A stretch of 64,000 bases of DNA, from contig NZ_CP054931.1 in assembly GCF_013364355.1 (NCBI RefSeq), forward strand, positions 744,001 to 808,000, read 5' to 3'. Below the pieces are notes generated by a model that searched no databases, was not told the origin of the DNA, and worked only from the letters and a program-made list of their open reading frames with translations. A program made the position numbers and the translations under genes. Below, piece by piece: positions 4,937-59,334 of the stretch (positions are counted from its first letter, which is position 1; the number at the start of each line of letters is the position of its first letter). This DNA comes from Stenotrophomonas sp. NA06056 (lineage in GTDB: Bacteria > Pseudomonadota > Gammaproteobacteria > Xanthomonadales > Xanthomonadaceae).

Positions 4937-5038
4937 GGCGGGGTGGGTCCGGTGGTGGGGGTGTCCGCGGCATGGATGCCGCGGCCAAGCCCCCAGGGAT
5001 GGGTTCACGGCGTCCCCCGCAACCGGACCCATCCCGCC
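4937..5038 (+). ncRNA. Structured repeat element, copy 1 (candidate RNA or mobile palindrome)
   Basis: The outer stem 4937-4953 pairs with 5022-5038 (17 positions, one of them G-U). Inside is a hairpin CCGCGGCAT-GG-ATGCCGCGG (4965-4984), and GGGGG at 4957-4961 can pair with CCCCC at 5014-5018. Two further copies with different stem sequences but the same architecture and the same GCATGGATGC or CCATGGATGG tip lie at 58930-59033 (minus) and 59229-59334 (plus). This copy ends 143 bp before the nucleoside hydrolase start. It is typed ncRNA because of the conserved fold; transcription is not demonstrated. Confidence 0.5.
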
Positions 5039-5181
5039 ACCCCAAGGAATGCCAGCTTTTGCCGTTGCCGTTGCTCCTGCCCTTGCGGGTGCAGGGCGCC
5101 GCCCTGCCGAACCCGAACCCCCATACTTGCAACGGTCATCTTCCCGGTCCACACTTCGTTGCCGATCTGAAGACGGCAACG

Positions 5182-6120
5182 ATGACCAAGAAGATCCCGC
5201 TGTTGATCGATACCGACCCCGGTGTCGACGACGCACTGGCCCTGCTGATGGCCTTCGCCGATGAACGGCATGACGTGGTCGCCCTGACCATCGCCGCCGG
5301 CAACGTAGGCCTGCAGTACACCGTCCGCAACGCCCTCAAGCTCTGCGACATCGTCGGCCGCGCCGACGTGCCGGTGTTCGCCGGCAGCCCCGATCCGCTG
5401 CTGCATCCGTCCGTTGACGCCGCCCACGTGCATGGCCGCGATGGCTACGGCGACGTCGATCTGCCGCCGCCGAGCCGCCAGGCCGACGCCGAACATGCCG
5501 CATTGGCGATCCTGCGTCTGTCGCACGAACATGCCGGCGAACTGATGCTGGTGATGCTCGGCCCGCTGACCAACCTGGCGCTGGCGCTGAAGCTCGATCC
5601 GACCCTGCCACAGCGCATCAAGCGCATCGTGGTGATGGGCGGGGCAGTCACCTGCCACGGCAACATCACCCCGGCAGCCGAATTCAACATCGCCTTCGAT
5701 CCGGAAGCGGCGCACGTGGTGTTCACCTCGTTCAAGCACCTGCTGGTGTCGGACTGGGAAGCCACCGTTGCCCACGGCCTGCCGCTGACCGAAGCCGAGC
5801 AGTGGCTGGGCGCCGATTCCGATCGCGCGCGCTTCTACGAGCTGATCTCGCGCAAGACCCGTGGCCTGTCCGAAGACAGCAAGGGCGGCCGTTGGTACAC
5901 CGCCGATGCGCTGGCCATGGCCTGGGCGCTGAACCCGGAAGGCCAGCTGCAGGTCGAGTCGCGGCCGCTGAATGTGGAGCTGAACGGCACGTTCAGCCGT
6001 GGCGCCACCATCGTCGACTGGAACCGCCAGACCGGCCAGCCGGACAACTGCGATCTGCTGATGGCCTACGACCAGGGGCGTTTCGAGGCCCTGGTACGCC
6101 AGGCCCTGGGCGCAGGCTGA
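5182..6120 (+). CDS. Inosine/uridine-preferring nucleoside hydrolase (IunH/RihA-type)
   Basis: 312 residues, the normal length of this family, which cleaves the N-glycosidic bond of ribonucleosides to give base and ribose in salvage. The N-terminal Ca2+-binding signature IDTDPGVDDALALLMA is at residues 9-24, followed by the family motifs VFAGSPDPLL, HVHGRDGYGD and MLGPLTNLALAL, and VMGGAVTCHGNITPAAEFNIAFDPEAA. A C-terminal Asp lies in the DALAMAWALNP segment. The ATG that places the DTDPG motif at the very N-terminus was chosen; the longer upstream frame runs through the structured element at 4937-5038. A hairpin at 6136-6161 follows the gene. Exact substrate preference cannot be read from the sequence. 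Confidence 0.92.
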   Translation: MTKKIPLLIDTDPGVDDALALLMAFADERHDVVALTIAAGNVGLQYTVRNALKLCDIVGRADVPVFAGSPDPLLHPSVDAAHVHGRDGYGDVDLPPPSRQADAEHAALAILRLSHEHAGELMLVMLGPLTNLALALKLDPTLPQRIKRIVVMGGAVTCHGNITPAAEFNIAFDPEAAHVVFTSFKHLLVSDWEATVAHGLPLTEAEQWLGADSDRARFYELISRKTRGLSEDSKGGRWYTADALAMAWALNPEGQLQVESRPLNVELNGTFSRGATIVDWNRQTGQPDNCDLLMAYDQGRFEALVRQALGAG

Positions 6121-6135
6121 GGCCAGTTCCCCCGC

Positions 6136-6161
6136 ACTGGTTGCCCCGGGCGGCAACCAGT
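6136..6161. terminator. Inverted repeat between the nucleoside hydrolase and rpmE2
   Basis: ACTGGTTGCC (6136-6145) pairs perfectly with GGCAACCAGT (6152-6161), loop of 6. There is no T-run, and the left arm overlaps the likely -35 region of rpmE2, so it may be a terminator or an operator. Confidence 0.4.
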
Positions 6162-6170
6162 GCTTATAAT
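6141..6170 (+). promoter_or_regulatory. Promoter of rpmE2
   Basis: TTGCCC (6141-6146), an 18-bp spacer, then a consensus TATAAT (6165-6170), 38 bp before the start codon. Confidence 0.6.
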
Positions 6171-6208
6171 GCCGCTCTTGACCACCAGCCCATTTACGGT
6201 GTGAGCCC

Positions 6209-6451
6209 ATGAAGGCCGATATCCATCCGAACTACCGCGACGTCGTCTTCCATGACGTCACCTCCGATTTCAAGATCCTGACCCGCTCGACCATGGCGAC
6301 GAAGGAAACCATCAAGTGGGAAGACGGCAACGACTACCCGCTGGTGAAGGTTGAAATTTCCTCGGCTTCGCATCCGTTCTACACGGGCAAGCACAAGGTC
6401 ATCGACACCTCGGGCCGTATCGACAAGTTCCAGAAGCGCTACGCGCGCTGA
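6209..6451 (+). CDS. rpmE2: 50S ribosomal protein L31 type B
   Basis: 80 residues, starting [16 protein letters not shown] and containing [17 protein letters not shown], the signature of L31. It lacks the zinc-binding cysteines of type A L31, which makes it type B (zinc-independent). It contributes to the central protuberance of the large subunit and to contact with the small subunit. In several bacteria the type B gene is repressed by Zur when zinc is plentiful; I see no recognisable Zur box here, only the inverted repeat at 6136-6161. It is transcribed alone, with a consensus TATAAT upstream and a strong terminator immediately downstream. Confidence 0.95.
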
Positions 6452-6474
6452 TACGTCGTACCCGGTTCGAACCG

Positions 6475-6505
6475 ACGGCCGCGCTCTGCGCGGCCGTTTG
6501 TTTTT
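6475..6505 (+). terminator. Intrinsic terminator of rpmE2
   Basis: 9-bp perfect stem ACGGCCGCG/CGCGGCCGT, loop CTCTG, then TTGTTTTT. Confidence 0.9.
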
Positions 6506-6652
6506 GTCCAGCGCCTACCCAACGGGCGTTTGGATGGACGGAACACTGCGTCCTTGTGACACCGCTTTTGCCGATCCGGGCCGCTTGCTGGCAGGGTGCC
6601 GGCTGCCTGTCGTCTACGACTTCTGTCTAGCGCCGGGGAAATGCTGCTGTGC

Positions 6653-6658
6653 GATAAT
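6653..6658 (+). promoter_or_regulatory. Possible -10 box of gltA
   Basis: GATAAT, 89 bp before the GTG start of gltA; no clear -35 partner. Confidence 0.35.
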
Positions 6659-6747
6659 GACCTGATCCCCGGCACAGGCCGAGGACGTCATTCACGTGCC
6701 TGACCAATGCGCTTGGGCAGGCGCCTTCCCATGAAGGAGCGCACACA

Positions 6748-8025
<1,278 letters not shown>

Positions 8026-8050
8026 TCGCTCTGCGTAGTTTGTGCTGGAG

Positions 8051-8080
8051 ACGCCCCGCGATTGCGGGGCGTTTTTTTTT
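8051..8080 (+). terminator. Intrinsic terminator of gltA
   Basis: ACGCCCCGC and GCGGGGCGT form a 9-bp stem, followed by a run of nine T. Confidence 0.95.
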
Positions 8081-8094
8081 GGGGAGCGGGCTTG

Positions 8095-8165
8095 GTAGGT
8101 GCGGACCGTTGGTCCGCACGATTTCGGCGCCCGCGAAAAATCATCCACGCATGGCGTGGATCTAC
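8095..8165. repeat. SMAG dimer: forward 8095-8119, reverse 8143-8165
   Basis: The forward copy is GTAG with arms GTGCGGACC/GGTCCGCAC. The reverse copy has the ATCCACGC arms and ends CTAC. The two copies belong to different arm subtypes yet form one GTAG...CTAC unit. Confidence 0.85.
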
Positions 8166-8168
8166 GTG

Positions 8169-8235
8169 GGTGCCTACCTTGGTTGGCACGATCTCGGCAT
8201 CAAAGGAAAACCATCCACGCATGGCGTGGATCTAC
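8169..8235. repeat. Degenerate SMAG-like palindrome plus a reverse SMAG (8213-8235)
   Basis: 8169-8190 carries GTGCC/GGCAC-type arms with a damaged centre and GTGG in place of GTAG. 8213-8235 is a perfect reverse copy ending CTAC. Together with 8095-8165 this fills most of the gap between gltA and the next gene. Confidence 0.7.
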
Positions 8236-8370
8236 TGTGCCCCGGCACTTGGCACGATGTCCACCGCGCAAAGACCGCGTGATTCAAGGGTCTCTCCAGC
8301 TTCACAACCGCACGTGCAGCCTCAGGACACCAACTGCACCCGCAGCACCTGATACGGAGCGTTCGACCCC

Positions 8371-9465
8371 ATGAGTACCCGATTCGACCCACCCGAGCGC
8401 GGCCCGCTTGGTCCCGACGTCGCCACTGTCGTCACCACTCCCATCGTGCCGCCCACCAGCGAGAGCGCAGTGTCGTGGGGCGCGATTCTGGCCGGTGCCG
8501 TTGCCGCCGCTGCGCTGTCCCTCATCCTGCTCATCCTGGGTGTAGGCCTTGGCCTGTCCTCGGTATCGCCGTGGTCGTTCGAGGGCGTTTCCAAGGAAAC
8601 CTTCGGCTGGACCAGCATCGCTTGGCTCACCTTCACCGCGCTGGCCGCTTCGGGCCTGGGCGGCTATCTGGCAGGCCGACTGCGCACCAAGTGGACGCAG
8701 ATCCATGGCGATGAAACCTACTTTCGCGATACCGCGCACGGCTTTGTGTCGTGGGCGGTGGCCACGCTGCTCACTGCTGGCCTGCTGACCTCGGCCATCG
8801 GTGGCGTGCTGGGCGCCGGCGCAAAGGTGGCTGGTGCCACCGCAGGCGCCGCGGTCTCCACCGCAGGTGTTGCTGCTGCCGGTGTCGGCACCGCGGCTGC
8901 CGGCGGCCAGGAAGGCGACCTCGACTACTGGGTGGATTCGCTGTTCCGCAACGCCACCCCGCCAGGCCCGGACGCCGCCGGTGCACCTCCGGCTCCGCCG
9001 GCAGCGGGCGCAGCACCGGGCAACGGCCCGATCGACCCTGCCGCACCGCCGCCGGCCGCCGCCAGCGTTGGCCCGCGTGACGCACGCACGGCCCCGCCGC
9101 CGCCGCGCCCGATGCCGGGCAATGGCCCGATGGGTGACCGTCGCGAAGTGCGTGCCGAAGTGAACCGCATCATCATCAACAGTCTGCAGGGAGATGGCCT
9201 GGACCCGGCCGATACCCAGTACCTGTCGCAGCTGATTGCGCGCGAGACGGGCATGAGTCCCGCCGAAGCGCAGGCCCGCGTGACCGACGTGCAGACCCGC
9301 ATGCGTGCCGCGCTGGAAAAGGCCAAGACCACCGCCAAGCAGGCTGCCGATGATGCCCGCAAGGCCACGGCGTATGCCGCGCTGTGGCTGTTCATCACTC
9401 TGCTGATCGGCGCGTTCTTCGCCAGCCTCAGCGCCACCTGGGGCGGCCGTCGCCGCGACCTGTAA
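8371..9465 (+). CDS. Predicted inner-membrane protein of unknown function, 364 aa
   Basis: Not recognised as a named family. Hydrophobic segments are visible at about residues 38-62 (ILAGAVAAAALSLILLILGV), 78-100 (SIAWLTFTALAASGLGGYLA) and 120-175 (two glycine/alanine-rich spans), and one near the C-terminus (AALWLFITLLIGAFFASLSA, ~331-350). Between ~185 and 265 lies a long Pro/Ala/Gly-rich linker, probably extra-membrane. Residues 265-330 look like a charged helical domain (EVNRIIINSLQGDGLDPADT) with coiled-coil character. The first ATG after the SMAG cluster was chosen. It is followed 27 bp later by a tiny membrane protein, probably in the same operon. Confidence 0.8.
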   Translation: MSTRFDPPERGPLGPDVATVVTTPIVPPTSESAVSWGAILAGAVAAAALSLILLILGVGLGLSSVSPWSFEGVSKETFGWTSIAWLTFTALAASGLGGYLAGRLRTKWTQIHGDETYFRDTAHGFVSWAVATLLTAGLLTSAIGGVLGAGAKVAGATAGAAVSTAGVAAAGVGTAAAGGQEGDLDYWVDSLFRNATPPGPDAAGAPPAPPAAGAAPGNGPIDPAAPPPAAASVGPRDARTAPPPPRPMPGNGPMGDRREVRAEVNRIIINSLQGDGLDPADTQYLSQLIARETGMSPAEAQARVTDVQTRMRAALEKAKTTAKQAADDARKATAYAALWLFITLLIGAFFASLSATWGGRRRDL

Positions 9466-9492
9466 TCCGCATCTGATGCAAGGAGACCTGCC

Positions 9493-9564
9493 ATGAAGAC
9501 GCTTCTGCTCTGGTTCCTGGGCGTACCGATTCCGCTGTTGATCCTGTACGCGATCTTCTTCTGA
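9493..9564 (+). CDS. Putative 23-residue single-span membrane protein
   Basis: ATG preceded by AAGGAG at good spacing; product MKTLLLWFLGVPIPLLILYA plus IFF, almost entirely hydrophobic with one Lys at the N-terminus, as expected for a small integral membrane peptide. It lies 27 bp after the larger membrane protein and before an inverted repeat at 9588-9614. The Shine-Dalgarno sequence and the coherent hydrophobic sequence support a real gene; the function is unknown. Confidence 0.6.
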   Translation: MKTLLLWFLGVPIPLLILYAIFF

Positions 9565-9587
9565 GATCGTGTCGTTGAGTGAGACCC

Positions 9588-9614
9588 ATCAGGCCGCCGC
9601 GAAGCGGCCTGATG
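9588..9614. terminator. Inverted repeat, possible terminator of the 8371-9564 unit
   Basis: CATCAGGCCGC pairs with GCGGCCTGATG (11 bp, loop CGCGA); no T-run follows. Confidence 0.45.
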
Positions 9615-9638
9615 CCATCCACGTGTGCATGAGCGTCT

Positions 9639-9661
9639 GTAGCGTCGAGCCACGCTCGACT
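9639..9661 (+). repeat. SMAG-type palindrome
   Basis: GTAG followed by CGTCGAGC-C-ACGCTCGACT, a further arm subtype, between the convergent 9493 and 9705 genes. Confidence 0.8.
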
Positions 9662-9704
9662 CACGCGCGCGCAGCGCGCAGGGCAGCCAGACGCAGGCCC
9701 GGTA

Positions 9705-10472
9705 CTACGCCTCCGCGTACCGGCTCGGCGAACATCCCAGCACACGCCGGAAGGCCGCAGAAAACGCACTCGGGCTGGCATAGCCCAGGTCCAGCGCGAT
9801 GCGGGTCACCGCTTGTCCCTGTCCAAGCCTTTCGATAGCCGCCAGCAGGCACACCTGCTGTCGCCACTCGGCGAAACTCACCCCGGTATCGGCGCGGAAC
9901 AGGCGCGTGAACGTGCGCCGGCTCATGCCTGCGTCGGCGGCAACGCCATCAAGGCGGACGGCCAGCGAAGGGGTATCGAACAACGCACGGCAGACACGTG
10001 CAAGGCGAGCATCAGCGGGCAGTGGCGCGTGCAGGGAAAGCGCGGGCATCGCAGCGATCTCCGCCACCAGCAGCTGCATCAGCTTGCCGGCACGTCCGTT
10101 TTCGTCATACAGCGCAGGCAGGTCCACTGCACCCTCAAGCAGGTGTCGCAGCAGTGCAGAGACGTCGTGCACGCGGCATTGCATTGGCAGCGTCGCGGCA
10201 GCCTCGGCAGAGAGAAAGGCATTGAGCATCGTCACCGGCCCGCGCATGGTCATCTCATGGGCCAGCCCGGCCGGCACCCAGCAGGCGCGCTGCGGTGGCA
10301 CCAGCCAGCGTCCCTGTGGCGTCGTCACGCTGATGGTGCCACGCGCAGCAAATGCGAACTGGCCACGTGCATGCGTATGCCGGGGAAAGGTCGATTCCGC
10401 TGCGTAATCGTTCGAGGTGACCACGACGTCGCGGGGCAGGTCTTCGTAGGGGTCGAGCAGGGTGTCGCGCAT
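9705..10472 (-). CDS. AraC family transcriptional regulator with N-terminal cupin
   Basis: 255 residues. The N-terminal ~100 residues read as an AraC-type cupin ligand-binding domain (FPRHTHARGQFAFAARG, HTH here being His-Thr-His). The C-terminal ~100 residues hold two helix-turn-helix motifs: GVAADAGMSRRTFTRLFRAD and TRIALDLGYASPSAFSAAF followed by FRRVLGCSPSRY, the classic AraC/XylS signature. It is divergent from the alpha/beta hydrolase gene with a 93-bp shared intergenic region, which suggests it regulates that gene, itself or both. The inducer is unknown. Confidence 0.9.
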   Translation of the reverse strand: MRDTLLDPYEDLPRDVVVTSNDYAAESTFPRHTHARGQFAFAARGTISVTTPQGRWLVPPQRACWVPAGLAHEMTMRGPVTMLNAFLSAEAAATLPMQCRVHDVSALLRHLLEGAVDLPALYDENGRAGKLMQLLVAEIAAMPALSLHAPLPADARLARVCRALFDTPSLAVRLDGVAADAGMSRRTFTRLFRADTGVSFAEWRQQVCLLAAIERLGQGQAVTRIALDLGYASPSAFSAAFRRVLGCSPSRYAEA

Positions 10473-10534
10473 GGCCCGGATTCTATAGGGGATGACCCGC
10501 CATCAACGGCCGACCGGACGCACGCTTTCTAGCA

Positions 10535-10548
10535 TGGAGGCCCCTCCA
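10535..10548. promoter_or_regulatory. Palindrome between the AraC regulator and the hydrolase
   Basis: TGGAGG-CC-CCTCCA, a 6-bp perfect dyad 17 bp before the hydrolase start codon. It could be an operator or simply sequester the ribosome-binding site. Confidence 0.3.
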
Positions 10549-10565
10549 GACCGCACCGGCGCCCC

Positions 10566-11321
10566 ATGACCAATTCCTTTCACCGCGTGGGGCAGGGGCC
10601 TCACCCCGTCCTGGTCCTGCACGGCTGGTTCGGCCACGCGCACGCGTTCGAACCCATCGAGCCCTGGCTGTCGCGCGATTACTTCAGCTACGTTTTCATG
10701 GACTGCCGGGGCTACGGCGGCATGCGTGATGCGCCGGGTCACTACAGCATCGACGAGATTGCCGGCGACGCGCTGGCGTTGGCCGATGCACTGGGGTTCG
10801 ACCGATTCGACGTCGTTGGGCATTCGATGGGCGGCATGGCCATCGAGCGCATTGCCGTTCGCGCGCCACAGCGGGTCCGATCCATGCTTGCCATCGCACC
10901 GGTCCCCTGCGGCGGCATCGCCTACGACGCCGCAACGCGAAGCCTGCTTGAAGCGGCAGCCGGGGACGTCGGCTTCCGTCGGACCATCATCGACCGCAGT
11001 ACCAGCGGACGCCTGCCTGCGGCCTGGCTGCAGTGGAAGGCGGACTGTTCGATGGCGCACTCATCGCCTGACGCATTTGCCGCCTATCTGCCTGCCTGGG
11101 CGGATACGGATTTCAGCAGTGAGATCATCGGCTGCCATCGGTTGAAGGTGCTGGTGGGTGAATACGACCCCACGTTCAATCTTGCACTGATGGAGCGCAC
11201 CTACCTGCATCGCTATCGGGACGCCACGGTGGAGGTGCTGCGAAACGCCGGGCACTACCCGATGAATGAAACGCCATTGGCCCTGGTTGCGGCCATGGAG
11301 GCTTTCCTGCGGAACGGATGA
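10566..11321 (+). CDS. Alpha/beta hydrolase
   Basis: 251 residues with the full alpha/beta-hydrolase layout: oxyanion-hole motif VLHGWFGHAHAF near residue 20, the nucleophile elbow GHSMGG with Ser87, an acidic residue after a strand in VLVGEYDPTFN, and His in GHYPMNETP near the C-terminus. The lid region (~115-190) is rich in aromatic residues. Such enzymes act on esters, lactones or C-C bonds; the substrate cannot be deduced. It stands divergent from the AraC regulator, which suggests inducible expression. A gene-free AT-rich stretch follows, leading to the fimbrial operon. Confidence 0.88.
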   Translation: MTNSFHRVGQGPHPVLVLHGWFGHAHAFEPIEPWLSRDYFSYVFMDCRGYGGMRDAPGHYSIDEIAGDALALADALGFDRFDVVGHSMGGMAIERIAVRAPQRVRSMLAIAPVPCGGIAYDAATRSLLEAAAGDVGFRRTIIDRSTSGRLPAAWLQWKADCSMAHSSPDAFAAYLPAWADTDFSSEIIGCHRLKVLVGEYDPTFNLALMERTYLHRYRDATVEVLRNAGHYPMNETPLALVAAMEAFLRNG

Positions 11322-11536
11322 ATCTTCAAGGTGGATTGAACCAATGAGCAATGGAATATTTGCGTGCAATGAGGCTTATTGCATTCAGTGGATGAGGAAA
11401 GTTGCATAACCCTCAAACATTGAACGACCTCAAGGATTCCTCTTAACGTTCAGCTTTTTAGGAAAGCTTGAATAGTCTGCATGGCGCTGGGTTCCTAGCA
11501 TTCTCTCCGTCGCCCGCAACCACCTCTGCGGGCGGC

Positions 11537-16792: not shown

Positions 16793-19700
16793 ATGAACAG
16801 AATCTATCGTCGTATCTGGTGCACTGCGCGGCAGTGCTGGATCGTTGCAAGTGAGCTGGCCACGGCACGCGGCAAGCGTGCCGCCTCATCCGGCGCAATC
16901 GTGCTGCCGGTTGTCGCATCGACCTTGATGGCATTCTCCGCGGCGGCCGAAAACATGCCCGTCGAAGAGGATGAGAGTGCCGAGGTGGCGGCGTATCTTT
17001 CCCCGAAAGGATTCAATAGCTTCGGCGCGATTCCGTTCGGAATTGGGGTGCGAAGGGATGACGCAATGGGAATTGCGGCTGCGCCGATCTACACGCAGGT
17101 GGCACTGACATCAGACTACTCCTACAGGAATTCCACCATCAATGGGGACCTGTTGTTGATGCTGGGATCGCGGTCTTCCATGACCGGGAATCGATCGGTT
17201 GCATACGGCAGCGTCATTACCGCAAATGGCGACAACAACACGGCAATCGGCTATGGCGTGGATATCACGCGAGGCGGCTACGCAACGGGTGTCGGCGCTC
17301 ATGCCATTGCCAGTGGGATTGGAACCACTGCGCTCGGCAACAATGCCAAAGCCTACTCGGAGAACTCCATCGCTATTGGTAGTGGCTCGCGAACGGTGGA
17401 GAGTCACGCAGGGGTCGCGCGGATAGCCATCGGCGGGAATGCCTTTGCAGGTACTGCCGGATACTCGGGTGCGGTGGCCCTCGGCGGGAACGCTCGCGCT
17501 GAGTACAACGGCGTCGCCATTGGCCATCACGCCAAGGCGTTGGCGGTCGGAAGCGTTGCGCTGGGGCTGAATTCGGAGGCAACCGAATCCAACTCGGTAT
17601 CGGTCGGTAGCAGCAGCACGAAGCGCCGGGTCGTCAACGTGGCAGATGCCCGTCTGTCCACCACCAGTACCGATGCAGTAACCGGCAAGCAGCTCCATGC
17701 CACCAACCAGAACGTCACCACCGCGACCAATACGGCCAATGCCGCGAAGACCACTGCCGACCAGGCACTGGTCAACACGCGACTGGTCACCCAGACCTCG
17801 GCCAGCAGCGCCGTACGCGTGGGCGGTGACAACACCGGCACCCAGCTGGATATCCGCAACAGGTCCAACGCCAACCGCAAGCTGACCGGCGTGGCCGACG
17901 CCACCCTCAGCACCACCAGCACTGAAGCGGTCACCGGCAAGCAGCTGCATGCCACCAACACCGCAGTGACCACGGCGCAGACCACCGCCACCGCGGCAAA
18001 GACCGCAGCGGATAACGCACTGGGCCAGGTGACCACCGTGGCCGGTCTGGTCGGGCAGGTCTCCGCCAGCGGCAATGTGCGCTTGGGCGCGCAGAACACC
18101 GGCACCGTGCTGGATGTAGCCAACAAGAATGGTGCTGCCCGCCGCATCAGCAACGTGGCCAATGCCACGCTCAGTGCATCCAGCACCGATGCCGTGACCG
18201 GTCAGCAGCTGCATGCCACCAACACAGCGGTGACCACCGCGCAGACCACCGCAACCGCCGCGAAGACGACCGCAGACAATGCCCTGGGTCAGGTGACCAC
18301 CGTGGCCGGTCTGGTCGGACAGGTTTCTGCCAGCGGCAATGTGCGCCTCGGCGCGCAGAACACCGGCACCGTGCTGGATGTGGCCAACAAGAATGGTGCT
18401 GCCCGCCGTATCAGCAATGTGGCCAATGCCACGCTCAGTGCCTCCAGCACCGATGCCGTGACCGGTCAGCAGCTGCATGCCACCAACACGGCGGTGACCA
18501 CCGCGCAGACCACCGCAACTGCCGCGAAGACGACCGCAGACAATGCCCTGGGTCAGGTGACCACCGTGGCCGGTCTGGTCGGGCAGGTGTCCGCGACCGG
18601 AAATTTACGCTTGGGTGCGCAGAACACCGGCACCGTGCTGGATGTAGCCAACAAGAATGGTGCTGCCCGCCGCATCAGCAATGTGGCCAACGCCACGCTC
18701 AGTGCCTCCAGCACCGAGGCCGTGACCGGTCAGCAGCTGCATGCCACCAACACGGCGGTGACCACCGCGCAGTCCACTGCAACTGCCGCGAAGACGGCGG
18801 CGGACAGCGCCATCAGCCAGGTAGGTACCGTGGCCGGTCTGGTCGGGCAGGTGTCGGCCAGCGGCCAGGTTCGCCTGGGCGCCGAGAACACCGGCACCGT
18901 ACTGGACGTGTCCAACAAGAACGGCGCGCGCCGCCGCATCCAGAACATCGCCAACGGCATCCTGGGCGCATCGAGCACCGATGCGGTGACCGGTCAGCAG
19001 CTGTTTGCCACCAACGAGCGCGTAGGCTCGGCAGAGACGCGGAACGAGGCCCAGGATCTGCAGTTGGTGGATCATGCTGATCGTCTGGCTGATCATCGCG
19101 TGGATCTGGACCGCTTGCGCGCCGACTTCGATGGCTTCGAACCGGATCTGGAAGGTGTGGTGAAGTTCAACGCCGAGCGGACCTTGGTGGATCTCGAGGG
19201 GGCCGTGGTGAAGGGAGTTGGACCTGGGGATATCAGCTCGGCTGCCAGTACGGATGCGGTGAACGGTGGGCAGTTGTTTGCCACCAATGCCCGGATCGAG
19301 CAGATGGAGCAGGGTAGTCGCTTCCTGCAGGTTGGCTACGACGAGTTCAGTGAGGATGCGTCGGCTGGGTGGTTGGGTGTCGCCATCGGGGATTCCGCAG
19401 AGTCGTCACCGACTGGTGAAGGTGGCACCGCTGTGGGCAGTTTCTCGAAAGCGCTTGGTGTTAACTCGGTTGCGTTGGGGCGGGCTTCGTGGGTGGTAGA
19501 AGAGGCAACCGAGGGTTTCGCGCTAGGTTCTAGCTCGCACGTTCAGGCTAGTGGGGGCGTTGCCTTGGGAGCTCGTGCAGTTGTTGGCGCTGACGCAGAA
19601 GGTGCTGTAGCCCTTGGGTATGGGGCAATCGCTGACGAGGCGAATACGGTTTCTGTTGGGACAAAGGGGCGGCAACGCCGGATCGTAAATGTGGGTCGAG

Positions 19701-21580
19701 GCCACGCTGAGAATGACGTAGTTGCAGTTGCACAACTCAGGGAGTCTCTGGCAACCCTTGGAGGTGGTGCCGGCCTCGATGCCAGTGGCAACATCATCGC
19801 GCCCACCTACGCGATTCAGGGGAGCAACCACAACACCGTCGGCGATGCGCTGACCGCGCTGGATGGTGCGGTGGTTGTGACCGATGCGCGGGTCGGCTCG
19901 CTGGAAGGCAAGCTGCGCTCGGCATTCCAGGACACCGGGATCCGCGCTGATGGTTTGAACCAACTCACGCTGTCCGGCGCACAGGGTGCGGTGCTGACCA
20001 ATCTGGCTGATGGTCGAATCGCAGCGGGCAGTCGCGATGCAGTGACGGGTAGCCAGTTGCACGATGCCAAGCAGGAGATCGCCCGCAATCGCAGCGATCT
20101 GGATGCGCTGCGCGACTCTCAGGTGACGGGTAACGATCTTGCACGCTTGTCTGCGGCTGAGACAGGGAGCGTAATTGACTTCGGCGGCGCGACACTGACC
20201 GGCGTAGCGGATGGCGAGCTGTCCGCAGGAAGCAAGGATGTTGTGAATGGCCGGCAGCTGTACGCCACCAACCAGCGCATGGATGGCCTTGAGCAGGGAA
20301 GCCGCTTCATGAAGGTCGGCTATGACGATCTGAGCATTGATGCATCGGCGGGCTGGCTGGGTGTGGCTATCGGCGATTCCGCGGAATCTTCCCCGACTGG
20401 CGAAGGTGGCACTGCTGTGGGGAGTTTCTCCAAGGCGTTTGGAACGAATTCAGTGGCATTGGGGCGTGCGGCCTATGTCACTGCGACGGCGATGGATGGC
20501 TTTGCTTTGGGTGCTAGTTCGCATGTTCAGGCTAACGGAGGCATCGCACTTGGTGGCAGGTCTGTGGTGGAAGCGGGTGCGGCGGGAGCCGTTGCGCTGG
20601 GTCACGCTTCCATTGCGGATGAAGCCAATACTGTTTCCATAGGCACCAAAGGACGGCAGCGCCGCATCGTAAACGTAGCCAACGGCCGCAACGCCCAGGA
20701 TGCCACCACCGTCGCCCAACTCAACGCCACCCTCGCCACCCTAGGCGGCGGCGCTCACATCGACAGCAACGGCAACATCATCGGCCCGCACTTCACCGTC
20801 CAGGGCCAGCAGCAGTCCACGCTCAACGATGCACTGCAGTCGCTTGATGGCGCTGTCACCAGCCAGGGCTCGCGCGTGGACAAGGTGGAAACCCAGCTCC
20901 GCTCCGTCTTCCAGGACACCACCACCCGCAGCGACGGTCTGAACCAGCTCACCCTGGCCGGTGCACAGGGCATGGTCATCTCCAACGTGGCCAACGGCCG
21001 GGTGGCTGCCGGTAGCCGCGACGCCGTCAACGGCGGCCAGCTGCACGACGTGCAGCAGCAGCTCAACGGCCGCATGGACGGGCTGGAGCAGCGCATCGAC
21101 GGCCAGCCGCAGGCACGCGTTGCCGCCAACGCCGCCGGTGCACCCGAGGCCCCCACGCCGCCGGCCGAAACGCCGACCGTGGTTGATGCCGGCAAGGCCC
21201 CCAACGCCACGCCGGAAACCCCGAAGGAGCCGACCCCGCAGGTCGACACCGCCGATCTGGAAAAGATGCTCGCCCGCGCCAACGAGTACAGCGATGGCAT
21301 CTCGCGCGAGGTGGATCGTCGCCTGGACAAGATGGACAAGCGCTTCAACCGCATGGCGGCGATGAGCAGCGCGCAGAGTGCGATGGCCATGAACACCGCC
21401 GGCCTGAGCACCTACAACCGCCTGGGTGCGGGCGTGGGCTACAGCGATGGCGAATCGGCCATGGCGGTGGGCTACCAGCGCGTGCTCAACGAAAAGGGCT
21501 CTGCCACCTTCAGCCTAAATGGCGCGTTCACCAACAGTGGCGAACGCACCGTGGGCGTGGGTGTGGGCATCGGCTGGTAA
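16793..21580 (+). CDS. Trimeric autotransporter adhesin (YadA/Hia type)
   Basis: 1595 residues. The N-terminus MNRIYRRIWCTARQCWIVAS is an extended signal peptide region (ESPR) followed by a hydrophobic core ending near AAA-E. Residues ~70-270 are YadA-head repeats (many [ST]-V-A-[IL]-G patterns). From ~275 to 740 come trimeric neck modules (DAVTGKQLHATN) joined to 88-residue repeats. Two long copies of a head segment start at about residues 838 and 1167 (GSRFLQVGYDE and GSRFMKVGYDD). A Pro/Ala-rich stretch, a coiled coil (~1480-1520) and a C-terminal YadA anchor (YNRLGAGVGYSDGESAMAVG ... GVGVGIGW) finish it. The anchor forms the 12-strand trimeric barrel in the outer membrane. It probably mediates adhesion or biofilm formation; the ligand is unknown. 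Confidence 0.95.
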   Translation: MNRIYRRIWCTARQCWIVASELATARGKRAASSGAIVLPVVASTLMAFSAAAENMPVEEDESAEVAAYLSPKGFNSFGAIPFGIGVRRDDAMGIAAAPIYTQVALTSDYSYRNSTINGDLLLMLGSRSSMTGNRSVAYGSVITANGDNNTAIGYGVDITRGGYATGVGAHAIASGIGTTALGNNAKAYSENSIAIGSGSRTVESHAGVARIAIGGNAFAGTAGYSGAVALGGNARAEYNGVAIGHHAKALAVGSVALGLNSEATESNSVSVGSSSTKRRVVNVADARLSTTSTDAVTGKQLHATNQNVTTATNTANAAKTTADQALVNTRLVTQTSASSAVRVGGDNTGTQLDIRNRSNANRKLTGVADATLSTTSTEAVTGKQLHATNTAVTTAQTTATAAKTAADNALGQVTTVAGLVGQVSASGNVRLGAQNTGTVLDVANKNGAARRISNVANATLSASSTDAVTGQQLHATNTAVTTAQTTATAAKTTADNALGQVTTVAGLVGQVSASGNVRLGAQNTGTVLDVANKNGAARRISNVANATLSASSTDAVTGQQLHATNTAVTTAQTTATAAKTTADNALGQVTTVAGLVGQVSATGNLRLGAQNTGTVLDVANKNGAARRISNVANATLSASSTEAVTGQQLHATNTAVTTAQSTATAAKTAADSAISQVGTVAGLVGQVSASGQVRLGAENTGTVLDVSNKNGARRRIQNIANGILGASSTDAVTGQQLFATNERVGSAETRNEAQDLQLVDHADRLADHRVDLDRLRADFDGFEPDLEGVVKFNAERTLVDLEGAVVKGVGPGDISSAASTDAVNGGQLFATNARIEQMEQGSRFLQVGYDEFSEDASAGWLGVAIGDSAESSPTGEGGTAVGSFSKALGVNSVALGRASWVVEEATEGFALGSSSHVQASGGVALGARAVVGADAEGAVALGYGAIADEANTVSVGTKGRQRRIVNVGRGHAENDVVAVAQLRESLATLGGGAGLDASGNIIAPTYAIQGSNHNTVGDALTALDGAVVVTDARVGSLEGKLRSAFQDTGIRADGLNQLTLSGAQGAVLTNLADGRIAAGSRDAVTGSQLHDAKQEIARNRSDLDALRDSQVTGNDLARLSAAETGSVIDFGGATLTGVADGELSAGSKDVVNGRQLYATNQRMDGLEQGSRFMKVGYDDLSIDASAGWLGVAIGDSAESSPTGEGGTAVGSFSKAFGTNSVALGRAAYVTATAMDGFALGASSHVQANGGIALGGRSVVEAGAAGAVALGHASIADEANTVSIGTKGRQRRIVNVANGRNAQDATTVAQLNATLATLGGGAHIDSNGNIIGPHFTVQGQQQSTLNDALQSLDGAVTSQGSRVDKVETQLRSVFQDTTTRSDGLNQLTLAGAQGMVISNVANGRVAAGSRDAVNGGQLHDVQQQLNGRMDGLEQRIDGQPQARVAANAAGAPEAPTPPAETPTVVDAGKAPNATPETPKEPTPQVDTADLEKMLARANEYSDGISREVDRRLDKMDKRFNRMAAMSSAQSAMAMNTAGLSTYNRLGAGVGYSDGESAMAVGYQRVLNEKGSATFSLNGAFTNSGERTVGVGVGIGW
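17877..18996 (+). repeat. 264-bp tandem repeats in the adhesin stalk
   Basis: Repeat boundaries fall at 17877, 18141, 18405, 18669 and 18933, exactly 264 bp (88 codons) apart. The units at 18141 and 18405 are nearly identical at DNA level; the first and last units are more diverged. Confidence 0.9.
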
Positions 21581-22394: not shown

Positions 22395-22738
22395 CTTCCA
22401 GTAGAGCCGAGCCATGCTCGGTTGCTTTCTGTTCCAGCATCCGCGGGGCCTGAAGCATAGTGCGGACCAAGGTCCGCACCCACCAAAGACAGATGGCTAC
22501 CCATGACTTCCAGTAGAGCCGAGCCATGCTCGGCTGCTTTCTGTTCCAGCATCCGCGGGGTCTGAAGCATAGTGCGGACCAAGGTCCGCACCCAACAAAG
22601 ACAGATCGCTACCCATGACTTCCAGTAGAGCCGAGCCATGCTCGGCTGCTTTCTGTTCCAGTATCCGCGGGGCCTGAAGCATAGTGCGGACCAAGGTCCG
22701 CACCCACCAGAGGCTGGTCGCTACCTGCCAGAGGCGGA
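22395..22738. repeat. 112-bp tandem repeat (about 3 units) of paired SMAG elements
   Basis: Units begin at 22395, 22507 and 22619, exactly 112 bp apart. Each holds a forward SMAG (GTAG at 22401, 22513, 22625; arms AGCCGAGC/GCTCGGCT) and a second palindrome GTGCGGACC-AA-GGTCCGCAC (22460, 22572, 22684) in the opposite orientation, with GTGG in place of GTAG. This fills the gap between convergent genes. I see no other feature in it. Confidence 0.9.
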
Positions 22739-52794: not shown

Positions 52795-52825
52795 ATGCTG
52801 CGAGGGTTTTGCCTGTAGCGGGGAA

Positions 52826-52844: not shown

Positions 52845-52855
52845 CAAACAACCCC

Positions 52856-53485: not shown

Positions 53486-53546
53486 GGGGGTGATCTCGTT
53501 GCTGGGTGGATGCGGCCAGTCTCGGCCTCACGCCGCGCTAACGCTT

Positions 53547-54683
<1,137 letters not shown>

Positions 54684-54704
54684 GGCCTGCGAAGATCGTT
54701 GCGC

Positions 54705-54735
54705 GAACCCCGGCCTGGCCGGGGTTCGTCGTTTT
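54705..54735 (+). terminator. Terminator of gap
   Basis: 9-bp perfect stem GAACCCCGG/CCGGGGTTC, loop CCTGG, then GTCGTTTT. Confidence 0.92.
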
Positions 54736-54812
54736 AGGGGTCCGGCCTGACGTAGCATGGGCGAGTCGACCGCCGCCATCGTGGCGCGCGGGATCGCATT
54801 GGAAGGCGAGGA

Positions 54813-57494
54813 ATGGAAGCACTCTTGGTCCTGGCAGTACTGGTCCTGCTGGCGATACCGCTGCTGCTGGTGGTGGCGCTGGTGATGATTGCTGGCCTGC
54901 GCCGGCGGGTCGCCGCGCTGGAGGCCGCACAGACCGTGCAGGCCGCGCCCACTCTGGCCGGGACTGTCGGCCGTGCGCCCTCGGCCGTGGCCGAGCCTCC
55001 GCGCGCGCCTGCGGCAACTCGCGAGGCCAGCAGCGAACCGTCGTTCCTGCGGCCCACGGCAACCCCGGCGCCAACGCCGGTCGCCGCCCGCGAAGCGCTG
55101 TTGCCTGCGCAGCCCGCGCGTCCGCTTCCGCCTCCGCCGTTGCCACCGGAACCCACATTGCCGCCGCTGCCGCCAGAACCGGCCCTGCCGAATCTGCTCG
55201 AGCGCGCGATCGGTGCGGTCAAACACTGGTTCACCCAGGGCAACGTGCCGGTCAAGATCGGCATGCTGGTGCTGCTTGCCGGTGTCGCCGCGCTGCTCAA
55301 GTACGTCAGCGACCAGGGCTGGCTGGTGGTGCCGGTCGAACTGCGGCTGGCGGGCATCACCGTCGGTGCGCTGGGCCTGCTGGCCTTCGGCTGGCACCAG
55401 CGCGAGCGCCGACGGATGTTCGCGCTGGCCTTGCAGGGGGGGGCCATCGGCGTGCTGCTGCTGACCATCTTCGCTGCCTTCAAGCGTTTCGATCTGCTCG
55501 CCCCGGGTTTCGCCTTTGCCAGTTCGATCGCCCTGGTCGCGGGACTGTGCGTGCTGGCGGTGGTGCAGAACTCGCGCACATTGGCGGTGCTGGGCATCCT
55601 GGCGGGCTTCATGGCGCCGCTGTGGCTGTCCACCGGCAGTGGCAACCACGTTGGGCTGTTCAGCTACTACGCCGTGCTCAACGCGGGCATTTTCGCCATC
55701 GCGTGGTATCGCCCGTGGCGTGTGCTGAACCTGCTCGGCTTCGCGTTCACCTTCGGCATCGGCACCTTCTGGGGCGTGCTGCAGTACGACGCGGCCAAGT
55801 TCGCCAGCACAGAACCGTTCCTGCTGCTGTTCTTCGCCTTCTATCTGCTGATTCCGCTGTTGTATGCGCGCCGGCAGCCGGCCGGGCGTCGCGATCTGGT
55901 CGACGGCAGCCTGGTGTTCGGCACGCCGCTGGTCGCCTTCTCGCTGCAGGCCGGCATGCTGCACGAACAACCGATGACGCTGGCCCTGTGCGCGCTGGGC
56001 CTGGCGGCGATCTATGCCTTGCTGGCACGCGCTCTGATCGCGCGCGCGTCGTACACGGTGCTGGCGCAGTCGCATGCGGTCCTGGCGGTCGGCTTTGCGA
56101 CGCTGGCGGTGCCGTTGGCCTTCTCGGCGCGGGCTACCGGCGCGGTATTCGCGCTGGAAGGCGCTGGCCTGGCGTGGCTGGGGTTGCGCCAGAAGCGCTG
56201 GTTGCCGCAGGTGACCGGTGCGCTGCTGCAGCTCGCGGCCGCATTCGCGTTCGTGGTCGGTGCCGATCATTGGCACCAGGACCAGCGCTTCCTGCTCAAC
56301 CCGACCGCAATCGGCGCGCTGCTGCTGGCCGTGGCAGGTTTTGCCGCAGCGTGGAGCTACCAGCGCAGGCAGCGCCATGACATCGCCCTGGCTTACTACC
56401 TGTGGGGCCTGCTGTGGTGGTTGGGCGGTGTCGCGCATGAAATCGGCCGCTTCTTCGAGCATTCGGCGCAGGCCGATGCCGTGCTGGTGCTGGCCGCCGT
56501 CACTGCGTGGCTGGCATCGGAAGTGCAGCGGCGCATGCCGGCGCGTGCGCTGGGCGTGACCGCGCTGACGATGCTGGCAGCGGGCTTCCCGTTGGCGCTG
56601 CTGCAGAGCGACGCGCACCAGCAGCCGTTTGCCGGATATGGCGCATTGGCGTGGGCGGTCTTCGCGGTGCTCGGCGTGCGCAGCCTGCTGTGCCTGCGCC
56701 AGGGCAGTGGTGGCGTGGCCCGTATCGCGCAGTTCCTGTGGTGGCTGCTGTGGCCGTCGCTGCTTTCGCTGCTGGCCCTGTGGGGCGGCGGCGACGCGCG
56801 CCTGGCGCAGGGCTGGACCGCGCTGCTGGTGACCCTGCCGTGGTTGCTGCTGGCGTCACTGTCGCTGTGGCGCTGGAACGTGCTGCGCTGGCCGCTGGGT
56901 GCTGCGTTTGATTCGGTGCGCCTGCCGCTGCAGAGCGTGATTTTCGCGGTGCTGGCGATGGCCTGGTTGTTCGGCCTGACCCTGGCGGGTGACGCCACGC
57001 CGCTGCCGTGGTTGCCGCTGCTCAATCCTGCCGAACTGGCGCAGTGGGTCAGCCTGTTGCTGATCGCGCGCTGGCTGTATGACGCGCACGGACCGGCGCC
57101 GCTGCAGCGCTTGCGTGTACCGGTGCTGGCCGTGGCCGGTTTCATCGCGTTGACCAGCACCGTGCTGCATGGCGTGCATCATTGGGGCGGGGTGGTCTGG
57201 GATCCGACGATGGCCCGCTTCAGCCTGGCCCAGACCAGCCTGACCGTGTTGTGGAGCGTGCTGGGCGTGATTGCCTGGGTGTGGGGCTCCCGTCGCGGCC
57301 AGCGTGTGCTGTGGATGGTTGGCGCCGTGTTGATGGCCGTGGTGCTGGCCAAGCTGGTGCTGATCGACCGCCAGCATCTGGGCAACCTGCTGGGAATCGC
57401 ATCGTTCATCGCCTACGGCCTGCTGTGCACCGTGGTGGGTTACCTGGCGCCTGCGCCGCCGAGCGCACCGCCAATCGTGGAGGAAAAACAATGA
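54813..57494 (+). CDS. DUF2339 polytopic membrane protein
   Basis: 893 residues. An N-terminal span (~3-28) is followed by a short coiled coil, a Pro/Ala-rich linker (~45-130) and then about 20 or more hydrophobic segments to the C-terminus. The family marker is the N-terminal region GNVPVKIGMLVLLAGVAALL plus KYVSDQGWLVVPVELRLAGI. The function of DUF2339 proteins is unknown; they are large inner-membrane proteins, often paired with a DUF3999 protein as here. The 4-bp overlap with the next gene (ATGA) shows a two-gene operon set inside a glycolytic neighbourhood. Confidence 0.9.
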   Translation: MEALLVLAVLVLLAIPLLLVVALVMIAGLRRRVAALEAAQTVQAAPTLAGTVGRAPSAVAEPPRAPAATREASSEPSFLRPTATPAPTPVAAREALLPAQPARPLPPPPLPPEPTLPPLPPEPALPNLLERAIGAVKHWFTQGNVPVKIGMLVLLAGVAALLKYVSDQGWLVVPVELRLAGITVGALGLLAFGWHQRERRRMFALALQGGAIGVLLLTIFAAFKRFDLLAPGFAFASSIALVAGLCVLAVVQNSRTLAVLGILAGFMAPLWLSTGSGNHVGLFSYYAVLNAGIFAIAWYRPWRVLNLLGFAFTFGIGTFWGVLQYDAAKFASTEPFLLLFFAFYLLIPLLYARRQPAGRRDLVDGSLVFGTPLVAFSLQAGMLHEQPMTLALCALGLAAIYALLARALIARASYTVLAQSHAVLAVGFATLAVPLAFSARATGAVFALEGAGLAWLGLRQKRWLPQVTGALLQLAAAFAFVVGADHWHQDQRFLLNPTAIGALLLAVAGFAAAWSYQRRQRHDIALAYYLWGLLWWLGGVAHEIGRFFEHSAQADAVLVLAAVTAWLASEVQRRMPARALGVTALTMLAAGFPLALLQSDAHQQPFAGYGALAWAVFAVLGVRSLLCLRQGSGGVARIAQFLWWLLWPSLLSLLALWGGGDARLAQGWTALLVTLPWLLLASLSLWRWNVLRWPLGAAFDSVRLPLQSVIFAVLAMAWLFGLTLAGDATPLPWLPLLNPAELAQWVSLLLIARWLYDAHGPAPLQRLRVPVLAVAGFIALTSTVLHGVHHWGGVVWDPTMARFSLAQTSLTVLWSVLGVIAWVWGSRRGQRVLWMVGAVLMAVVLAKLVLIDRQHLGNLLGIASFIAYGLLCTVVGYLAPAPPSAPPIVEEKQ

Positions 57495-58867
57495 GCAAGT
57501 GGAGCCGAGCGTTGCTGCCGGTGTTGTTGGGCGTGGCCGGTGCAGTTGCCGCGCAGGCCACGGACTACCGCGCGCAGTACGCCGAACAATGGCCGCTGAG
57601 CCTGTCCAGCGCGCAGTCCGGTGCCTATCGGGTGGTGCTGGAGCCGGCGATCTATCGCCGCGCAGGCGCCGCCGATCTGGGTGACCTGCAGGTGTTCAAC
57701 GCCGCTGGCCAAGCATTGCCGTCGGCGCTGCTGGCGCCGGACCAGCCGTTGGCGCAGCCGCCGGTACAGCGCGAGCTGCCCTGGTTCGCGCTGCCGGCGT
57801 TGGCCGAGGCCCAGCGCAACGACCTGCAGTTGCTGACCGAGCGCGATACCGATGGTCGTGTGCGCCGGGTCGAAGCTCGGCTCGGTGGTGGTGCGGTGGC
57901 GAACGGGCAGGGCGGCTGGTTGATCGATGCCAGCGTGCTCGGCCAGCAACCGTTGGCAGCGCTGGTGCTGGACTGGGCCGAAAGTGGCCAGCCGCTGCAG
58001 GCGCAGGTGCAGCTCGATGCCAGTGATGATCTGCAGCGCTGGCAGTCGATCGCCCGCGATGTTCCGCTGGTGGACCTGCAGCGCGCGGGCAAGCGCCTGC
58101 TGCAGCGCCGCCTGCAGGTCGACAGCACGGTGCGCTACCTGCGGATCCTGCCGCAGGGCGAGGCACGCCTGCCGGAGCTGCGCAGTGTATTGGCGGAACT
58201 GCCGCCGGCGCCGGCAACGGTGCCCTGGGAGTGGCTGTCGCTGACACCGACCGCACAGGGCAAGGGGGAATTCACGTTCGAACTGGATGGTCGATTCCCG
58301 GTGACCCGGGCCGACGTCGCCAGCACCGACAACAGCCTGGTGCAGTGGACGTTGTTCAGCCGCGATGATGAAGGCGCCGAATGGCAGCGCCGCAGTGCCC
58401 CGTGGATCGCCTACCAGTTGCAGCAGGGTGCACCGGGCCAGCGCCAGCAATCGGCGGCACAGCCGTTGGGCGGCATGTACCGCGACCGCTACTGGAAGCT
58501 GGTAGCGAGCCCGGTGGAGACCACCAGCGTCCCGACCCTGCGCCTGGGCTATCAGCCGGAAGTGATGGTGTTCCTCAGCCAGGGCGCAGCACCCTACGCG
58601 CTGGCCGTGGGCAGTACGACCGCGCGCCGTGCGGAGGCACCGATCGCGGTGTTGATCGAGGAACTGCGGCAGCGCAATGACCCGGCGTGGCAGCCGACGC
58701 TGGCACGGTTGGAGGGCAGTCCGGAGACGCTGGCCGGTGATGCGGCGCTGAAGCCCCAGCACGACTGGAAGGCGTGGCTGCTGTGGGCGTTGCTGGGGTT
58801 GGGGGTGCTGGTTGTTGGCGGACTGGCGTTGAGTCTGCTGAAGCAGAAGCCGTCGCCTTCGGCGTAG
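57491..58867 (+). CDS. DUF3999 protein, membrane-anchored periplasmic
   Basis: 458 residues with a signal peptide (MSKWSRALLPVLLGVAGAVA, cleavage near AQA-T). A long periplasmic beta-rich part follows (YRVVLEPAIYRRAGAADLGD at the start; VRYLRILPQGEARLPELRSV and EFTFELDGRFPVTRADVAST later). One C-terminal transmembrane span (~428-448, WLLWALLGLGVLVVGGLALS) ends in a short basic tail. DUF3999 genes accompany DUF2339 genes, so the two products probably form a complex across the inner membrane; no biochemical role is known. Confidence 0.9.
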   Translation: MSKWSRALLPVLLGVAGAVAAQATDYRAQYAEQWPLSLSSAQSGAYRVVLEPAIYRRAGAADLGDLQVFNAAGQALPSALLAPDQPLAQPPVQRELPWFALPALAEAQRNDLQLLTERDTDGRVRRVEARLGGGAVANGQGGWLIDASVLGQQPLAALVLDWAESGQPLQAQVQLDASDDLQRWQSIARDVPLVDLQRAGKRLLQRRLQVDSTVRYLRILPQGEARLPELRSVLAELPPAPATVPWEWLSLTPTAQGKGEFTFELDGRFPVTRADVASTDNSLVQWTLFSRDDEGAEWQRRSAPWIAYQLQQGAPGQRQQSAAQPLGGMYRDRYWKLVASPVETTSVPTLRLGYQPEVMVFLSQGAAPYALAVGSTTARRAEAPIAVLIEELRQRNDPAWQPTLARLEGSPETLAGDAALKPQHDWKAWLLWALLGLGVLVVGGLALSLLKQKPSPSA

Positions 58868-58929
58868 TTTGCGGCGAACGGCGCAGCCCCTCGTGGGTGG
58901 TCGGTCGTTCAGAGCAGAAGCCGTGGTTT

Positions 58930-59033
58930 GGCCGGGCGGGTGGACTGTGCAGGGGGCGCCGCAAGTACGTCCCTGTAGGCTTGGCAGCCGCATCCATGCG
59001 GCTGACACCCCTGCCCAGCCCACCCGCCCGGCC
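58930..59033 (-). ncRNA. Structured repeat element, copy 3 (minus strand)
   Basis: Outer arms 58930-58950 and 59013-59033 pair over 21 positions with one mismatch and one A/C pair that becomes G-U on the minus strand, which supports minus-strand orientation. The inner hairpin reads AGCCGCAT-GG-ATGCGGCT on the minus strand (58986-59003 on plus). Same architecture as 4937-5038 and 59229-59334. Transcription not demonstrated. Confidence 0.5.
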
Positions 59034-59118
59034 TCTGACAATTTCCGGGTGCGTCCACCCACGGAAGAGAAAAAAGAAGAGCAGGAGCAGAAGCGGGTCG
59101 CTTCGCTCGACGGCCGTC

Positions 59119-59159
59119 GGGGTCGGAGCCGTTTTCCGCAGGAAAACGGCTCCGACCCC
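59119..59159. repeat. Perfect 19-bp inverted repeat
   Basis: 19-base arms starting GGGGTCGGAGCCGTTTTCC and their exact complement, separated by GCA. It is placed between the two divergent structured elements. The outer GGGGTCGG/CCGACCCC core is the same as in the symporter terminator at 40137, so this may be a repeated terminator-like element. The rest of 58868-59506 holds the two structured elements and a repeat-rich stretch; I see no gene there. Confidence 0.75.
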
Positions 59160-59228
59160 TTCTTTCTCCATCCGACACCAGAAACCGCCTTTGCTTTCTC
59201 CGTCCGCTCCGCCTCATGAACCTGTCGA

Positions 59229-59334
59229 GGCCGGGGCGGTGTGGGCTCGCGGGGGCGTAAGCGCCATGGATGGCGCGCCCGAGCCTCCAGGGATGGATTC
59301 ACGGCGTCCCCCGCGGGCCCATACCGCCCCGGCC
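59229..59334 (+). ncRNA. Structured repeat element, copy 2 (plus strand)
   Basis: Outer arms 59229-59250 and 59313-59334 pair over 22 positions with two G-U pairs; inner hairpin GCGCCAT-GG-ATGGCGC (59261-59276). It ends 172 bp before the pgk start. Like copy 1 it is followed by a GCCGTTGC-type repeat (59367-59406). Transcription not demonstrated. Confidence 0.5.

Follow-up and report, generated by a model that had tools for sequence, protein, structure and literature searches.

What is the hairpin-forming element that occurs three times in this window, the 64,000-nucleotide stretch at positions 744001-808000 of the Stenotrophomonas sp. NA06056 genome (4.52 Mb, a single contig), and which of its two strands matters to the cell? 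The preliminary description took it for a three-copy structured element with a constant hairpin tip. The three elements lie where that description placed them and fold as it said, with RNAfold energies of -78.2, -81.5 and -87.3 kcal/mol for copies 1, 2 and 3, respectively. We propose, with about even confidence, that they belong to a dispersed transposon-like intergenic repeat whose RNA, made from the strand that reads GGA in its hairpin loops (the GGA strand), works by binding RsmA/CsrA. Transcription of the element, its binding of RsmA, its importance to the cell and its mobility are what we infer from sequence.

The element is not limited to three copies. A blastn search with the three window copies found at least 98 merged places in their own genome, and a covariance model (R1) run over that whole genome found at least 150 copies, all with E of 4.8e-13 or better. 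A covariance model and genome searches for further copies were the check named in the preliminary description, and the many additional copies extend the family far beyond the window. A profile search of 71 fetched regions and the window gave 132 matches, 123 of which spanned at least 75 profile positions; the nine shorter ones were excluded from the core and strand counts.

The tip is indeed constant, and the stems differ between copies while still pairing. The conserved part, however, is not the tip only but a core of 67 columns, which showed no gap in any of the 58 distinct representatives. Nor is the inner part one hairpin with a G/C-rich pairing, as first described. The core is a three-way junction in which the outer stem closes two hairpins, both ending in C-ANGGAY-G hexaloops and standing about 20 nt apart. 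Loop 1 read ATGGAT in 120 of the 122 scored own-genome copies (one copy was unscored). For loop 2, the pick was A-any-GGA-pyrimidine in 102 of the 122 copies; the other 20 comprised 18 picks in another register or place, one ATGGAA and one copy in which no loop 2 was found. In the alignment, the letters A, G, G and A of loop 2 were invariant in 58 of 58 representatives and its second place took all four bases, a freedom that is expected of ANGGA sites. ANGGA is the consensus of the sites bound by CsrA/RsmA. Its presentation in hairpin loops that come in pairs, as expected of a CsrA/RsmA-binding RNA, was found for loop 2 in all 58 representatives, for loop 1 in the 120 of 122 copies given above, and in 27 of the 32 R1 matches from relatives that fell outside the pattern of our genome scan, where GGA was required in loop 2; these 27 had two scorable GGA hairpin loops. 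The features in the window are as follows.

4937..5038, plus strand: copy 1 (single), whole hairpin, core 4955-5021
4972..4977, plus strand: copy 1 loop 1, ATGGAT, from the sequence, its place from the covariance model
4995..5000, plus strand: copy 1 loop 2, AGGGAT, from the sequence
58930..59033, minus strand: copy 2, left member of an inverted pair, core 58948-59014
58992..58997, minus strand: copy 2 loop 1, ATGGAT, from the sequence
58969..58974, minus strand: copy 2 loop 2, AGGGAC, from the sequence
59034..59228, no strand: spacer between copies 2 and 3
59119-59159: separate perfect hairpin GGGGTCGGAGCC..GGCTCCGACCCC in this spacer
59229..59334, plus strand: copy 3, right member of the inverted pair, core 59249-59315
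59266..59271, plus strand: copy 3 loop 1, ATGGAT, from the sequence
59289..59294, plus strand: copy 3 loop 2, AGGGAT, from the sequence
59370..59404, plus strand: imperfect (TTGCTG/TTGCCG)n tract downstream of copy 3

Pairing in the core was strongly supported by covariation, as had been suspected from the three copies. Fifteen of the 22 core pairs varied on both sides and 95.1% of cells were paired, compared with one to four such pairs and 39-51% of cells when the partners were slid by 1-3 columns. None of 500 shuffles reached 15 two-sided pairs (mean 11.3) or the observed paired fraction. Pairs 11-30 and 12-29 were each unpaired in 28 of 58 rows, most commonly as a tandem G.A, which was present in 25 of 103 distinct own cores. 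Beyond the core, the outer stem continued for about 18-22 further pairs, 22 being the longest extension allowed, and came in several sequence types. The outer arms within one copy paired with a median score of 31.5, while arms swapped between loci scored 2.5, and 63 of 64 copies reached the 95th percentile of 313 arm swaps.

The two strands were compared through their wobble pairs in 64 distinct copies from other genomes. This sample drew 54 copies from the 119 R1 rows (67-nt), together with pattern-matched copies in loci L084-L112, and left out the top Stenotrophomonas loci L179, L224, L166 and L170, short-flank copies and duplicates. Read on the GGA strand, the outer stems contained 1157 Watson-Crick pairs, 96 G.T, 8 A.C, 55 other pairs and 28 bulges, and the cores contained 21 G.T, 6 A.C and 65 others. 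G.T exceeded A.C in 44 copies and A.C exceeded G.T in two, with 18 ties. The bias was also seen without Xanthomonas (69 G.T vs 8 A.C), with a lenient aligner (109 vs 26, and 73 vs 2 in the inner 16 pairs) and when only mismatches with a Watson-Crick pair on each side were counted (72 vs 6). The own genome, with 118 distinct although related copies, gave 68 G.T vs 18 A.C. Repetitive extragenic palindrome (REP) hairpins of the same loci gave 5 G.T vs 10 A.C, counts that are few and come from an alignment whose last REP row was misaligned (79 odd pairs). Since strand-symmetric mutation or palindrome correction predicts equal G.T and A.C, the bias implies selection on the GGA strand in its folded form, or else exposure of this strand to strand-biased mutation, for example by transcription. 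Together with the covariation, it supports the earlier suggestion of selection on a folded strand: the GGA strand appears to be selected as a folded single strand, most likely RNA.

The architecture was at first thought to belong to no named family. We found it in TwoAYGGAY (RF01731), and in Yersinia Ysr224 (RF02770) corresponds to the opposite strand of the element. TwoAYGGAY was described in 2010 as probably an RNA and probably not cis-regulatory, from the human gut, gamma-Proteobacteria and Clostridiales (PMC2864571), and it has been predicted to bind CsrA (PMC4333381); it and CsrB are both in Rfam clan CL00106. No Rfam match above a gathering threshold was obtained at the window copies or in 20 diverse loci, and the TwoAYGGAY model matched one of eight diverse loci below its threshold (35.3 of 43 bits). 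Among 30 genomes searched with this model, 21 with R1 matches and nine without, the threshold was passed in three, all with R1 matches; thus 17 of the 20 element-bearing genomes other than our own missed it and three passed, at R1's place and strand. There was none in 14 control genomes. The best score in the own genome, for the one match listed, was 40.0 bits, below the 43-bit threshold. R1 matched at the same place and strand as TwoAYGGAY in nine of 12 fetched loci; the matches in the other three were partial and sub-threshold and came from two genomes without R1 matches. Because the scores lie below the curated threshold, the own-genome copies are not assigned to TwoAYGGAY, and on their sequence they are close relatives of it. 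On the opposite strand of the element, Ysr224 scored 126.5 bits in Yersinia similis and 84.7 bits in Samsonia; antisense to copies 2 and 3, the two copies searched, it scored 28.0 and 21.4 bits and missed its threshold of 70.

The family is widespread and patchy. With stricter filters, R1 matched 49 of 274 sampled Gammaproteobacteria in 43 of 221 genera, the own genome included, three of the 49 weakly (E 3e-4 to 9e-4). Within the genus, 23 of 31 genomes matched (again with the own genome), and copies ranged from 0 to at least 150 per genome. The pattern scan of named genomes returned at least 120 stretches, including Xanthomonas, Shewanella, Halopseudomonas, Microbulbifer, Oceanisphaera, Methylotuvimicrobium and Yersinia, and 80 of these contained 119 R1 matches. 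This copy number and patchiness suggest that the element moves. Three IMG/VR viral contigs (L368-L370) carried the loop-2 pattern.

Copies 2 and 3 make up an inverted pair, which is the usual arrangement of the element. In the fetched regions, 98 of the 132 matches were neighbours in 49 left-minus/right-plus pairs, their members 142-503 bp apart (median 195), and the only other neighbours within 2 kb were the halves of three copies split by insertion. Judging from coordinates, Xanthomonas, Halopseudomonas, Oceanisphaera and other genera have similar pairs, and a Saccharophagus metagenome-assembled genome has four direct copies, one every ~180 bp (L162:3128-3731). The units are intergenic: none of 83 had more than half its length inside a gene called by our custom codon-usage caller. 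Counting pair members separately, the gene on the 5' side of the GGA strand was codirectional in 80 of 123 copies and divergent in the other 43. In the own genome, the stretch up to the stop codon on the 3' side is often filled by a (TTGCYG)n tract and a short palindrome, and tracts of the (TTGCTG/TTGCCG)n type recur in the 3' flank of many copies. Selection against likeness between pair members was considered and not adopted, as the 43 pairs gave a weak trend only; outer arms were as unlike in 49 of 300 shuffles and cores in 57 of 1000, and no pair had near-identical cores where 2.9 were expected (40 of 1000 shuffles). We also rejected an autonomous element inside the widely spaced pairs, as L113 and L114 contain apparently ordinary genes there, and L161 likewise by eye.

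Two hexaloops on one fold, selection of one strand and kinship with the CsrB clan are accounted for most simply by a two-site platform for the CsrA/RsmA dimer. In such a mechanism, GGA-strand RNA would fold into a long outer stem topped by the two C-ANGGAY-G hexaloop hairpins, and dimeric RsmA/CsrA would bind one hairpin on each of its binding faces. Transcripts that run through a copy could then serve as a cis site or as a dispersed sponge, and an inverted pair would ensure that read-through from either side includes exactly one GGA-strand copy. The own genome has one csrA gene.

Several observations weigh against this proposal. The 3' side of the GGA strand faces the stop codon of a convergent gene in 76 of 123 copies and a gene start in 47, and transcripts of such convergent neighbours would carry the non-GGA strand first. 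In pairs, the antisense partner precedes the GGA-strand copy for genes that are codirectional on the 5' side, and Ysr224, the one annotated transcript related to the element, is on the non-GGA strand. With the lenient aligner, the wobble count of the own genome was 68 G.T vs 43 A.C, although 11 of these 43 A.C were flanked by Watson-Crick pairs on both sides and most were not. Folded single-stranded DNA also tolerates G.T pairs. Further pair types in the core were no more numerous than in shuffles (25 vs a mean of 25.8), and five of the 32 R1 matches outside the scan pattern lacked two scorable GGA loops. CsrA did not track the element, being found in 45 of 49 genomes with it and 18 of 20 without, and one genome (G196, 98% complete) showed no CsrA despite at least nine element matches. 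Finally, RsmA still bound the RNA RsmU after its predicted GGA motifs had been changed (PMC7694677), so that GGA loops alone are weak proof of binding.

The alternative that survives best, possible in our view but rather doubtful, is a REP-like hairpin of single-stranded DNA. A transposase (Y1/HUH or other) would recognize the folded GGA strand as its end, the loops would be kept for this enzyme and any RNA would be incidental. High copy number with patchy spread in the genus, inverted pairs in several genera and intergenic placement all fit it, as do the REPs that accompany the element in its spacers and the module exchange between copies seen at orthologous sites. Suspicion fell on Y1 transposases first because families of terminal inverted repeats (TIRs), including a self-complementary one found mostly as close pairs, had been reported from S. 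maltophilia (PMC3733652). In 33 Y1 neighbourhoods (three own, 30 from element-rich genomes), each taken to ~1.5 kb or the contig end, there was no element match up to E 0.1, and in 30 more from eight genus genomes there were only two matches, with E of 0.45 and 0.56. These 63 loci were examined out of the 111 Y1 matches listed, and ORF 1152 of strain K279a was not among them. A flanking RAYT or TIRYT transposase was therefore rejected as the partner. GTAG was absent from the 5' end of all three window copies, and the TIR motif GGGGWSAS was absent from them on either strand, although only some TIRs share this motif (PMC3733652). In addition, the few local REP stems did not have the wobble bias, and Rfam has the same fold as an RNA motif in the CsrB clan.

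A separate hairpin, GGGGTCRGA..CCCC, was present in several pair spacers, including the window spacer at 59119-59159. Its copies that read GGGGTCAG fit GGGGWSAS and may represent a TIR family (PMC3733652); the window copy, GGGGTCGG, is not an exact fit. The REPs of the window match REP types listed for Stenotrophomonas (PMC2817692).

An improbable alternative is that the element acts at mRNA 3' ends through its C-rich AUCCAU strand, protecting or ending the transcripts of convergent neighbours, as has been proposed for REPs. The stop codon faces the 3' side in the 76 copies noted above, 72 of them 55-151 nt from the core, and Ysr224, with its high score in Y. similis, is annotated on this C-rich strand. 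The wobble bias, however, is on the GGA strand, and its G.T pairs become A.C mismatches on the C-rich strand; a plain stabiliser would also need neither two conserved loops nor a fixed core. That the element has no function, its arms being kept complementary by template-switching palindrome correction and gene conversion, is very improbable, since the loop and half-element switches at orthologous sites do indicate conversion but neither process would be expected to favour G.T over A.C on one strand or to conserve unpaired loops across the class.

Placement ahead of metabolic genes (a nucleoside hydrolase and pgk) had been taken as meaningful, but the varied gene arrangement and the 76 stops against 47 starts on the 3' side do not support this. 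A promoter-like TACAAT lies at window positions 59451-59456, between copy 3 and pgk, and the ACAATG of this site was found near the pgk start in 27 of 29 genus loci whether the element was present or not. A riboswitch or leader of pgk and nucleoside hydrolase was rejected because of the varied arrangement and the promoter-like site downstream of copy 3. The pgk gene was seen in 29 of 30 relatives' loci, own included, of which eight had two pattern-scored cores, five had one and 16 had none; five of the 29 upstream stretches were shortened by contig ends (129-573 nt). By eye, at least four of the 16 core-less loci (L278, L279, L281 and L282) contain shortened remnants. Copies at the orthologous pgk site differ in their hairpin modules, and the poor pairing of L268 is explained by halves that belong to two different types; on their sequence, such module differences probably reflect gene conversion. 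There was no clean insertion boundary at pgk among these relatives, only deletion remnants or distant lineages without the element.

Some copies are themselves interrupted. Loci L275, L276 and L277 carry structured inserts, roughly 70-90 nt long, in one or the other of the two loops or in both, with similar letters in L150, L170, L173, L240, L262 and L264; the first insert is predicted to contain two hairpins with AGGA in the loop. In three repeat copies, the 5' arm of hairpin 2 is split by an element of ~1.2 kb, always at the same site (L035:1056-2273, L042:1041-2259 and L045:2914-4130). Its transposase in L035 matches DEDD_Tnp_IS110 and Transposase_20, and the frame in L045 stops early. Elsewhere in the window, a C4 antisense RNA match of 67.6 bits lies near copy 1 (4504-4594, minus strand), a long called gene with 264-bp internal repeats occupies 16928-21580, and three 112-bp tandem repeats, the second and third 96 and 90% like the first, lie at 22395-22730.

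The genome-wide repeat nature of this TwoAYGGAY-like motif appears to be new. Literature searches on CsrA/RsmA with repeats or sequestering RNAs, TIRYT, Ysr224 and TwoAYGGAY, with subscription literature mostly outside their reach, found no description of such a repeat, and a search with the letters of the element returned unrelated papers only. We tentatively suggest that CsrA/RsmA sites, already paired, have travelled through Gammaproteobacterial genomes on a transposon-like repeat, that the sponge in species such as this Stenotrophomonas may be at least 150 dispersed units read through from their neighbours rather than one small RNA (sRNA) gene, and that TwoAYGGAY and Ysr224 may be the two strands of one element. 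If so, a high-copy mobile element would buffer global carbon-storage regulation in many Gammaproteobacteria, as an RNA counterpart of the transcription factor sites that transposons spread, and a copy number that varies from 0 to at least 150 within a genus would help set the free level of the regulator. This reading would also join two separately curated Rfam families, and it could explain why a survey that tallied every instance within a strain ranked Ysr224 with the 20 most prevalent sRNAs.

Among known systems, REP/RAYT and the S. maltophilia TIR families (PMC3733652) resemble the element in being high-copy palindromes in close inverted pairs, here known from S. maltophilia; the element differs in lacking the GTAG head and in that no copy was found beside the 63 Y1 loci. 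Ysr224 shares its place with the element in Y. similis and Samsonia, although its annotated strand is the opposite one. TwoAYGGAY likewise has an outer stem that bears two hairpins, their loops of the CAUGGAUG type and on the same strand, and a tandem G.A in a stem has been reported for it (PMC4333381), as in the own cores counted above. Its loops are AYGGAY, while the second loop of the element is the looser ANGGAY (AYGGAY only where N is T or C), and hairpin 2 of the element is shorter than in the Rfam consensus. The element is moreover a repeat of up to at least 150 copies, often paired, a property absent from the accessible parts of the TwoAYGGAY descriptions (PMC2864571, PMC4333381). RsmU of Xanthomonas campestris, from a related genus, is likewise an RsmA-binding RNA with GGA motifs; it is, however, a single mRNA-derived sRNA, for which the accessible part of the report gives no Rfam homologue (PMC7694677), and the element is dispersed. 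The CsrB and RsmX,Y,Z sponges also present GGA in hairpin loops. They are single loci with many sites each, whereas the element has two sites per unit in many dispersed units.

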